Part shown: in pieces, positions 40,403 to 43,185 of the stretch
Numbering within the stretch: the first letter of the stretch is position 1
Layout: every line of letters begins with the position of its first letter
Assembly: GCA_951812755.1 (NCBI GenBank)
Contig: OX638329.1
Location: 977,339-1,041,338, forward strand
DNA from: an uncultured Latescibacterota bacterium
GTDB lineage: Bacteria > Latescibacterota > UBA2968
DNA: 64,000 nucleotides
Direction of reading: 5' to 3'
Made by a program: the position numbers and the translations under genes
Notes under the pieces: model-generated
Told to the model about the DNA's origin: nothing
The model's input: only the letters and a program-made list of their open reading frames with translations
Databases searched by the model: none

Positions 40403-40442
40403 TCTATTCGTCTATTCGTCTATTCGTCTATTCGTCTATTCG
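40403..40442. repeat. 8-bp tandem microsatellite (TCTATTCG)5
   Basis: Five perfect units of TCTATTCG run from 40403 to 40442. The ribE stop codon (40436-40438) is inside the last unit, so slippage here could change the stop context by up to a frame-shifting number of bases. Confidence 0.95.
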
Positions 40443-41083
40443 TCCACGCTCATCATCGCCCGAATGCGATCTTCTGTGAGCTTATTTTTACCATCTCCCG
40501 ATTGCACCAACCGCTCCAGATAACGCGCGATCATATCCACTTCGATATTTACCCGGGCACCCGGATATTTTTCCGATAATGTCGTAACTTTTAGTGTGTG
40601 CGGAATTGCCGCGATCGAAAAGGTGCGGTCGGTTACTGAAACCACTGTCAGGCTGATTCCGTTGACGGTGACTGATCCTTTCTCGGCAATATAAGGGGCC
40701 AACTCAGACGGAACTTCAAATTCAAATATAATTTGGTCAGGAGATTCTGTTCGGCCTTTCACGCGGCCCACGCCATCGACGTGTGCGGCAACGAGATGGC
40801 CGTCGAGGCGGTCGCCGAGTTTTAATGACCGCTCCAGATTAACGCGGCTGCCCACGCGGCAATCACCCAATGTGGTTCTTTGCAGTGTTTCTGCTATGGA
40901 TTCGATCACAAATGTGTCGGCATCAAAATGTACGACGGTATGACACGCACCTTCGATGGCAATGCTGTCGCCTATTTTTACGCCATTGAGCACCTGCTTC
41001 GCTGCAATAGTCGTGCGCTGGTAACCCGCGCGCGATTCAATATGCCGAATCGTTCCCACTTCCTCTACAATGCCAGTAAACAT
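40436..41083 (-). CDS. ribE: riboflavin synthase alpha subunit
   Basis: 215 residues, two tandem lumazine-binding domains. First domain starts [12 protein letters not shown] and includes [12 protein letters not shown]; second contains [14 protein letters not shown] and ending in [11 protein letters not shown]. It dismutates lumazine to riboflavin. The start is 12 bases after the TIR gene stop. The stop lies in a tandem repeat. Canonical length. Confidence 0.97.
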
Positions 41084-41095
41084 AAGTAATTAACC

Positions 41096-41704
41096 TTATT
41101 GAACGGGTGCGGGCTTGGGGTGCTGAGCCGTAAATCGTTCGATAAGTCCTGGTTGGGCCTTTAAGCGAGCGTATGTACGGGAATCGTACCGAATCCCATT
41201 AAAAATATCCTGTCCTCGTTTTTCTTCCCGCCGGATGAATGAGTCAATCTGACGAACAGCCCAATCTACAGCGTCTCCATCCTGTGGACTATGGAAGGCA
41301 GCGCGGTCGCGGATAGATTGCCAGACTGAGCGCAGGAGTCGCTCATCGTCTCTTGGGAGGAAAAGTAGCGGCAGCATAATGTTTTGTAGGACACCGCCAG
41401 CCCTGTGCAAATTCTCCTGCAATAGATCGGCCCAGGCGAGTTCCACTATTCCCCAGCCTCGCGGCTGATCCAGCATCGCATCGGTTATGAGGAACACAGT
41501 ATGACGACATTTCAACACGCCGTCACGGAGTGCCGCGAGTGAAGTGCGACCATAGGGGTAATCATGGCGATCAAGCCAAGGACTGATGTCTTCTTGGCGC
41601 AATGCCTCACACAAAGGATCTGCCAGCCATTCCATATCCTCGCGACAGTAGGACAGAAATACATGATGGGTACAAACAGGGAAGGACTGAAGTTGCCAGA
41701 ACAC
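41096..41704 (-). CDS. TIR-domain protein inside the rib operon
   Basis: 202 residues, GTG start at 41704 with AAAGGAA seven bases upstream. TIR fold: HHVFLSYCREDMEWLADPLC (box 1, residues 13-32), ISPWLDRHDYPYG (residues 40-52), HTVFLITDAML, and the alpha-C helix RGWGIVELAWADLL, in which Glu88 sits at the NADase catalytic-glutamate position (W..E spacing). The C-terminal 90 residues are helical, with an unusual tail ending in PAPVQ. TIR proteins cleave NAD+ in immunity or act as scaffolds. Transcribed after two small paralogues and before ribE. Confidence 0.85.
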   Translation of the reverse strand: MFWQLQSFPVCTHHVFLSYCREDMEWLADPLCEALRQEDISPWLDRHDYPYGRTSLAALRDGVLKCRHTVFLITDAMLDQPRGWGIVELAWADLLQENLHRAGGVLQNIMLPLLFLPRDDERLLRSVWQSIRDRAAFHSPQDGDAVDWAVRQIDSFIRREEKRGQDIFNGIRYDSRTYARLKAQPGLIERFTAQHPKPAPVQ

Positions 41705-41714
41705 GACAGTTCCT

Positions 41715-42038
41715 TTACGTTGGCAGTGCCGGCAACTCCGGCACTCGAACTACCAACGCACTTTGACCTGTAATGATACCGATCAAGCGCTCGCCAAGCT
41801 CTGTTGGGCACACAAAATTAGTGTGTTTAATTTCGACTATGTCACGTTGCGCTAGCTGCTCGCATGCCTGGATGATCTCTCCAAAACTGTAGCTCTCCAA
41901 ATCTACTTCAAGAGTTTGAAATGTTTGCCCGTAGCCCGGTCCGCGGCTGGGAGCTATTCGCGGAAAGGCGGCCAAGATTTCCCGATAAATGGGCGGGAGC
42001 GATTCGGCATAACTTTTCAATTGTTCATCGGTTGCCAT
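41715..42038 (-). CDS. 107-residue TIR-associated winged-helix-like protein, copy 2
   Basis: ATG 42038 with TAGGAGAT just upstream; the stop TAA leads into the TIR gene's ribosome-binding site. The sequence LPPIYREILAAFPRI, then EIIQACEQLAQRDIVEIKHT and TELGERLIGIITG suggests a winged-helix domain (helices then a beta wing ending in a short helix). It is about 75% similar to 42049-42372 by eye. A Leu/Pro tail (VRVPELPALPT) is shared. No family recognised. Its immediate linkage to the TIR gene suggests a regulator or specificity partner. Confidence 0.75.
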   Translation of the reverse strand: MATDEQLKSYAESLPPIYREILAAFPRIAPSRGPGYGQTFQTLEVDLESYSFGEIIQACEQLAQRDIVEIKHTNFVCPTELGERLIGIITGQSALVVRVPELPALPT

Positions 42039-42048
42039 TTTGCATCTC

Positions 42049-42372
42049 CTACGTTGGTAGCACAGGCAATTCCGGAACTTGAATTACCGGCGCGCTTTGA
42101 CCCGTAATGATACCGATCAGGCGCTCTCCAAGCTGTGTTGGATGCACAAATATTTTGTGTTTAACCTCTACGAGTTCGCGCTGCTCTAACTGCTCGCATG
42201 CCTGGACGATCTCTCCTAAGTTATAGCTTTTCAAATCTACTTCAAGAGTTTGAAAAGCGAGACCGTAACCCTGTTTGCGGCCGGGTTCCAGGCGCGGAAA
42301 GGCAGTCAAGATTTCCCGATAAATAGGCGGGAGCGATTTGGCATAACTTTTCAGTTGTTCATCGGTTGCCAT
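42049..42372 (-). CDS. 107-residue TIR-associated winged-helix-like protein, copy 1
   Basis: Same length and architecture as the next gene: LPPIYREILTAFPRLEPGRK, then EIVQACEQLEQRELVEVKHK and TQLGERLIGIITG. ATG 42372 is preceded by AGGGAG. Differences are mostly conservative and in the loop GRKQGYGLAFQTLEVDLKSY. It is separated from the ribD reductase by 31 bases. The tandem pair resulted from duplication; both look intact. Confidence 0.75.
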   Translation of the reverse strand: MATDEQLKSYAKSLPPIYREILTAFPRLEPGRKQGYGLAFQTLEVDLKSYNLGEIVQACEQLEQRELVEVKHKIFVHPTQLGERLIGIITGQSAPVIQVPELPVLPT

Positions 42373-42403
42373 TTTGCGTCTCCCTGATTTACGATATGAT
42401 CAA

Positions 42404-43087
42404 TCAGTGCGGTTTCGCAACGCGAGCAGTGAACAAAAAATCATCGCCGATGGATTCGACTTTTACATTTTCGAGTGCAATTGCATCGGTTATCGAAACA
42501 ATATCTAAGGATCCGATTGCGGGTATTCCAGCACCCAGTATTTTGGGCGCGACAAATGCGGCTATTCGATCTATCAGGCTCAGGCGCAATGCCGATGCAG
42601 CCACGCGACTGCCGCCTTCGATCAGGATGTGTCGCAATCCTATTTGAGCGGCTTTTTGCAAGACCGCCTTCAAATTAATTTGACCATTCAGCATTGGCAA
42701 CTGCCAGATCTGCGCGCCTTTTTTTTTACGTTCTTCTATTCGTTTTTTGCACACCTCTTTAGCGGTTGCTATAATCAGTGGTGCCCCGCCAAAAATCCTG
42801 GCGTTTAATCCGATTTTTAGCTGAGTATCCAGAACGATTTTTGTCGGGCTGCATCCATCGACATAGCGCACGGACAATTCCGGGTCATCCGTCATCACTG
42901 TGCCGCGTCCGACCAGAATCGCGTCGGCCTCTGCGCGAAGTTGATGCCCGCGCACCCGCGATGCTTTTGATGTGATCCACTTCGAGTCACCCGTGCAGGT
43001 GGCGATGTTGCCGTCTAATGTTTGCGCCAATTTTAAGGTGACAAAGGGCAATCCGGTTGACCGATATTTGGTTTCGAATTTGTTCAT
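42404..43087 (-). CDS. ribD: RibD-type 5-amino-6-(ribosylamino)uracil reductase domain
   Basis: 227 residues from ATG 43087; no strong ribosome-binding site. DHFR-like fold blocks: VTLKLAQTLDGNIATCTGD, DAILVGRGTVMTDDPELSVR (NADPH/substrate), and HILIEGGSRVAAS. It corresponds to the C-terminal reductase of bifunctional RibD; the N-terminal deaminase with its HAE and PCxxxG motifs is absent, so the deaminase must be encoded elsewhere or replaced. First gene of the leftward rib group. Confidence 0.88.
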   Translation of the reverse strand: MNKFETKYRSTGLPFVTLKLAQTLDGNIATCTGDSKWITSKASRVRGHQLRAEADAILVGRGTVMTDDPELSVRYVDGCSPTKIVLDTQLKIGLNARIFGGAPLIIATAKEVCKKRIEERKKKGAQIWQLPMLNGQINLKAVLQKAAQIGLRHILIEGGSRVAASALRLSLIDRIAAFVAPKILGAGIPAIGSLDIVSITDAIALENVKVESIGDDFLFTARVAKPH

Positions 43088-43185
43088 TATGTAGCGGTGA
43101 GACGTGAGACGAACGCCCAACCAGCCCCCAGTCCTCTCCAGCCTCTCGCCTTTTATCTGCGTTTATCTGCGTTCATCTGCGGATA
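43088..43185. repeat. simple repeats between ribD and the propeller gene
   Basis: GTGAGACGTGAGACG (43098-43112) resembles pieces at 47570-47577 and 58710-58722; TTTATCTGCGTTCATCTGCG (43161-43180, part of a longer repeated motif) resembles 49545-49560. The stretch must also hold the rib operon promoter, if any; none stands out. Confidence 0.5.

Follow-up and report, generated by a model that had tools for sequence, protein, structure and literature searches.

Background

Immunity in bacteria, plants and animals has a common root in TIR proteins, which often destroy NAD+ to stop phages. The control of stand-alone bacterial TIRs is often unknown. The TIR of SpbK needs assembly to become active (PMC12847820); Thoeris TIR proteins, as described in PMC11204291 and PMC11312562, make a signal for a separate effector. 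The locus analysed here places a TIR gene and two small genes within the riboflavin operon of an uncultured Latescibacterota bacterium (G000); our literature search returned no description of a TIR gene in a riboflavin operon. The window, which is the whole 64,000-nucleotide stretch under analysis, corresponds to C1:977339-1041338 of this genome, a single contig of 6.53 Mb.

Gene organisation of the locus

The genes ribD, small, small, TIR and ribE run as a single minus-strand train, separated by 31, 10, 10 and 12 nt (Table 1); purine-rich ribosome-binding sites precede the genes, and ribBA and then ribH follow 3' of ribE. The sequence-only reading had given this order, strand and position, with gaps of 10-31 nt, tight ribosome-binding sites and no terminator between the genes; all of these points proved right. 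In a consensus scan, whose match count equals the chance expectation, the sole minus-strand terminator-like match of the region lies within ribD, and no minus-strand promoter was found in the train region. The two 107-residue small proteins, read as paralogues, share 77% identity. The label ribD holds in part: the gene encodes the reductase half (RibD_C), and no deaminase domain was found in it with Pfam or NCBIfam. Neither an FMN riboswitch nor any other Rfam family was found in window positions 30000-52000.

Table 1. Features of the ribD-ribE region, in window positions
Feature	Position	Strand	Evidence
ribD reductase half (RibD_C), upstream host gene	42404..43120	-	Pfam RibD_C 6.8e-47
Small protein 1, 107 aa, MarR-like winged helix	42049..42372	-	Family alignment of 10 sequences
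Small protein 2, 107 aa, tandem paralogue of small protein 1	41715..42038	-	AlphaFold2 pLDDT 87.4, Foldseek MarR neighbours
TIR protein, 202 aa, GTG start	41096..41704	-	Pfam TIR_2 8.4e-12, residues 15-96
ribE (riboflavin synthase), downstream host gene	40436..41083	-	NCBIfam PRK09289 8.1e-70
Inserted segment, about 1313 nt	41084..42396	-	Empty-site comparison with relatives

Empty riboflavin sites in relatives

RibE was searched in 31 genomes and RibD was then located in the same stretches. In all 28 other genomes where both can be placed, ribD and ribE are adjacent and lack the block; no relative was found to keep it beside the rib genes. The 28 include nine congeners with RibE identities of 83-96%. 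In eight of these the RibD stop directly precedes the RibE ATG, and the spacing in the ninth is comparably close. G000 resembles the congeners up to about ...TGATCAT and the match resumes from ATGTTTACTGG; both small genes and the TIR gene lie between these junctions, of which the downstream one is the ribE ATG. The junction comparison also shows that the last ribD codons of G000 differ from those of the nine congeners. DNA similarity to the copies in G027 and G046 is limited to the block, from the small-gene start or just before it to the end of the TIR gene. Read by eye, the outermost 60 nt at each end of the insert show no obvious terminal inverted repeat.

The placement in the rib operon happened once and is seen in this genome alone, and the rib linkage of the block is accidental, a chance landing. 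Chance insertion had been named as the alternative by the sequence-only reading, which itself favoured a cofactor-linked or co-regulated conflict system. The conflict-module half of that proposal is supported by pairing at unrelated sites and by matched divergence (see below); the flavin half is not supported, given the empty rib sites.

The single transcription train with its tight spacing would suit a function of the block linked to this operon's supply of riboflavin or FAD, as would a further copy beside nadC, an NAD synthesis gene. However, the nadC placement traces to one inherited event within a single genus, the block occupies five other unrelated sites, it is absent from the rib operons of the 28 genomes, and no FMN riboswitch was found. 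This explanation is largely refuted already and we regard it as extremely unlikely. Two candidate explanations were rejected: rib linkage as a function, given the empty site in all comparable relatives, and FMN riboswitch control of the block, given the lack of an Rfam match.

Pairing of the TIR and small genes

Using the window TIR as query, members of its family were found in seven of 59 other genomes at E<=1e-19; the small-protein query returned the same seven genomes, with the small gene adjoining the TIR gene in each. Profile searches covered 64 genomes of the phylum, G000 included, and added only a C-terminal remnant of the small protein in G008. This remnant lies near an apparent transposase gene. 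Beyond G000, seven of the phylum's 63 other genomes and one spirochaete have TIR homologues; a small homologue is adjacent in eight out of eight, and no family TIR without a neighbouring small gene was found among them. The spirochaete MAG is the only carrier of the pair among 393 genomes of its phylum, where no further copies were found.

Six unrelated sites carry the pair: rib (G000), the DctQ/AAA_14 interval (G002 and G005), nadC/glycosyltransferase (G044, G034 and G046), sugar transporter/esterase (G027 and G046), SMP-30/methylase (G015) and WYL/nucleotidyltransferase (the spirochaete MAG). Either gene order occurs, G015 having the TIR first, and the TIR and small genes abut or overlap. 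No common third gene stands beside the pair across these sites. The TIR-small pairing is not accidental; as in toxin-antitoxin systems, two genes are adjacent and their pairing is conserved across sites.

The sequence-only reading had proposed a search for the block outside the rib operon, and the TIR and small genes do stay together at unrelated sites. It had also set two outcomes jointly against its own proposal, and these came apart: relatives' rib operons do lack the block, while the small proteins do co-occur with the TIR elsewhere.

The TIR protein

The TIR domain lies in the N-terminal half of the protein (Pfam, residues 13-96) and is followed by a conserved C-terminal extension to residue 202. 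The TIR_2 score of the window protein exceeds the Pfam gathering score, and TIR_2 matches all seven members. Both the TIR assignment and the catalytic-type Glu88 picked out earlier are borne out; Glu88 lies in W84-x-x-x-E88, and W84 and E88 are among the positions that are invariant in an alignment of seven full-length homologues. We take this motif to correspond to the W-C-x-x-E motif of TIR NADases. A glutamate at this position is also found in animal TIRs without strong NADase activity; Glu88 alone does not prove activity, and the protein is a predicted NADase. A TIR profile run against the PDB matches Cat1 (6.7e-5) and AbTir (0.003), and PADLOC and NCBIfam give weak likeness to Thoeris and other defence TIRs. 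The TIR structure predicted from seven sequences has a pLDDT of 45, probably due to too few sequences, and was left out of the fold search.

A TIR that serves as a non-enzymatic scaffold, or that makes a cyclic ADP-ribose signal for an effector elsewhere in the genome, would agree with the glutamate of the animal TIRs and with the signalling of Thoeris TIR proteins cited above. Such an arrangement is at odds with the lack of a common third gene across sites, and we consider it improbable.

G000 has other TIR genes. The second (L113:1291-2330, near C1:3876600) is ThsB-like (PADLOC 6.6e-15) and overlaps a gene that matches the PADLOC 2TM effector model; from these matches the two genes are a putative Thoeris-like or TIR-2TM pair. 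The third (L111:1411-1731, near C1:5884900) encodes 106 aa with a good TIR_2 score and W-x-x-x-E, and stands alone.

The small winged-helix protein

The small proteins of the window have no family match in Pfam, NCBIfam or PADLOC. Assignment to a named family was abandoned: neither these collections nor PDB sequences yielded a usable match, and the sole PHROGs match was weak and concerned one small-protein member. An AlphaFold2 model built from ten sequences (pLDDT 87.4) supports the earlier guess of a winged helix. In a Foldseek search of the PDB, its best neighbours are mostly MarR-type winged helices; the best match has E 0.015, probability 1.00 and TM about 0.6, and none passes E 0.001. 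The protein is modelled with the winged-helix fold of the MarR family; it lacks a Pfam MarR match and, in P0002, a basic recognition helix. It may represent a previously unclassified family of winged-helix partners.

Members of the family are mostly acidic, and the predicted recognition helix of P0002 (residues 52-64, FGEIIQACEQLAQ) contains no Lys and no Arg. These properties favour a protein-binding role for the small protein over DNA binding. They also weigh against a DNA-binding repressor of its own module, which would silence the TIR through transcription and not by direct binding. The nearest solved structures, mainly MarR-type repressors, are consistent with such a repressor; at the nadC and DctQ sites, each copy comes with an upstream region of its own, and the tandem duplicate could be a dimerising pair. 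The G000 copy, however, lacks a promoter region of its own and has a leader of about 23 nt to the first ATG, and no conserved operator-like inverted repeat was established. Repression of this kind is quite unlikely in our judgement.

Two copies have unusual features around the small gene. The small protein of G027 forms an in-frame fusion with a member of the uracil-DNA glycosylase superfamily (L060:10048-11274), whose Pfam UDG match falls just below the cut-off; the small-TIR junction of this copy contains ten N bases, so the assembly is imperfect there. In G002, an inverted repeat, CAATGAGT...ACTCATTG (L055:135-200), spans the small gene's start region, where it could occlude the site of translation initiation. 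The hairpin upstream of the G002 copy has z -2.2, and that of the sister G005 has z -1.1 (weak).

Horizontal movement, loss and selection

The identity matrices of the TIR and small proteins correlate with r = 0.98 (seven pairs, 21 non-independent comparisons). The congeners G000 and G002 have identities of 0.96 in RibE and 0.44 in the TIR; for the distant pair G000 and G027, the values are 0.50 and 0.73. The TIR and small proteins diverge in step yet contradict RibE, which indicates that the pair moves horizontally. Searches of phage, plasmid and viral collections yielded no copies.

Empty sites are known at three loci: rib, nadC and DctQ/AAA_14. At nadC, five congeners are empty and G044 carries the complete pair. 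In G034 the 3' part of the TIR gene is gone, and in G046 nearly all of that gene; each keeps the small gene intact. At DctQ/AAA_14, the block is absent from G006, G007, G004, G001, G003 and G008. In G000 this interval holds a SocA/Panacea antitoxin-family gene (L105:6241-6885, near C1:791240); the interval appears to be a small hot spot for modules of this kind. In the second G046 copy of the pair, a stop interrupts the small gene and the TIR gene is frameshifted; sequencing error is a possible cause. A 784-aa P-loop NTPase with weak STAND and mad8-like matches (L056:6989-9343) is encoded immediately upstream of the decayed TIR pair in G046.

Judged by pairwise omega (0.17-0.35 for the TIR and small genes alike, and 0.25 between the tandem small copies of G000), both genes are under purifying selection. 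Retention of an intact small gene where the TIR gene is truncated or deleted is expected if the TIR is the costly part, and this favours restraint of the TIR by the small protein; the argument rests on two TIR losses in one genus. The orphan small proteins could also have a role independent of the TIR.

The small protein may instead act positively, as a sensor or adaptor that the TIR requires for activation, rather than as an inhibitor. Strict pairing and co-divergence suit either sign of interaction, and TIR proteins need assembly for activity, as in SpbK (PMC12847820). Retention of an intact small protein after truncation or loss of the TIR would be expected more of a neutraliser, although there are few such cases; we think a positive role unlikely.

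Proposed function

Our preferred reading, in which our confidence is evenly balanced, is that of a transferable module of a TIR effector and a winged-helix partner which landed by chance at the start of ribE; the partner would restrain or trigger the TIR, in defence or in a toxin-antitoxin-like role. Its basis is the constant pairing, co-divergence, horizontal movement, repeated changes of site and empty site in relatives. This module would be compact, with the partner duplicated in tandem here, and having arrived at the ribE start codon it is now probably read through from the rib operon. The TIR would cleave NAD+ when assembled. The winged-helix protein would bind the TIR and, by protein contact, either keep it off or pass on a trigger; release of the TIR during infection or stress would then halt growth, as abortive infection or toxin-antitoxin-like behaviour. 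Flavin metabolism would have no part in this.

We put the following proposition at just short of even: the two genes form a previously undescribed module for immunity or of the toxin-antitoxin kind, its TIR NADase is held through direct contact with an acidic MarR-like winged helix of no known family, and its insertion fell exactly between host genes, with no transposase recognised.

Cloning and testing are easy for a module like this one, which is about 0.95 kb long and strictly pairs two genes, one of them from a new family of small partners. The locus is also a warning: close gene spacing within a housekeeping operon can reflect nothing more than where an insert happened to land.

Comparison with known systems

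In literature largely outside subscription journals, no description of a TIR-winged-helix pair was found. The bacterial TIR NADases SpbK (PMC12847820), AbTir and Cat1 share with this protein a TIR domain with the W-x-x-x-E glutamate. SpbK differs in being a single protein with extra domains, and Cat1 in being CRISPR-coupled; here, a 202-aa TIR has its own C-terminal extension and a separate winged-helix partner.

Thoeris ThsB is likewise a small stand-alone TIR gene, and PADLOC gives weak matches to it (3e-4 to 9e-3). In contrast to Thoeris, where ThsB lies beside ThsA, no ThsA-type effector gene was recognised among the neighbours examined, and the partner is a winged helix; the neighbours identified at the six sites are metabolic, transport or unrelated genes. 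Thoeris identity was rejected on this gene-neighbour comparison.

The effector-associated domains (EADs, PMC7159879) provide a further parallel, in that a small non-enzymatic protein partners a TIR effector. Unlike these, the small protein matches neither an EAD nor, credibly, any other Pfam family, and the TIR carries no fused copy of its domain.

RES-Xre and MbcTA, which are NAD-degrading toxin-antitoxin systems, also consist of two small adjacent genes, usually with the small one first; they too are horizontally mobile, with loss of the effector gene and retention of the partner. They differ in that the effector here is a TIR instead of RES, and the partner is an unrelated acidic MarR-like winged helix with a putative neutralising role. 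By analogy, the pair would work most like these two-gene NAD-degrading toxin-antitoxin or abortive-infection modules.
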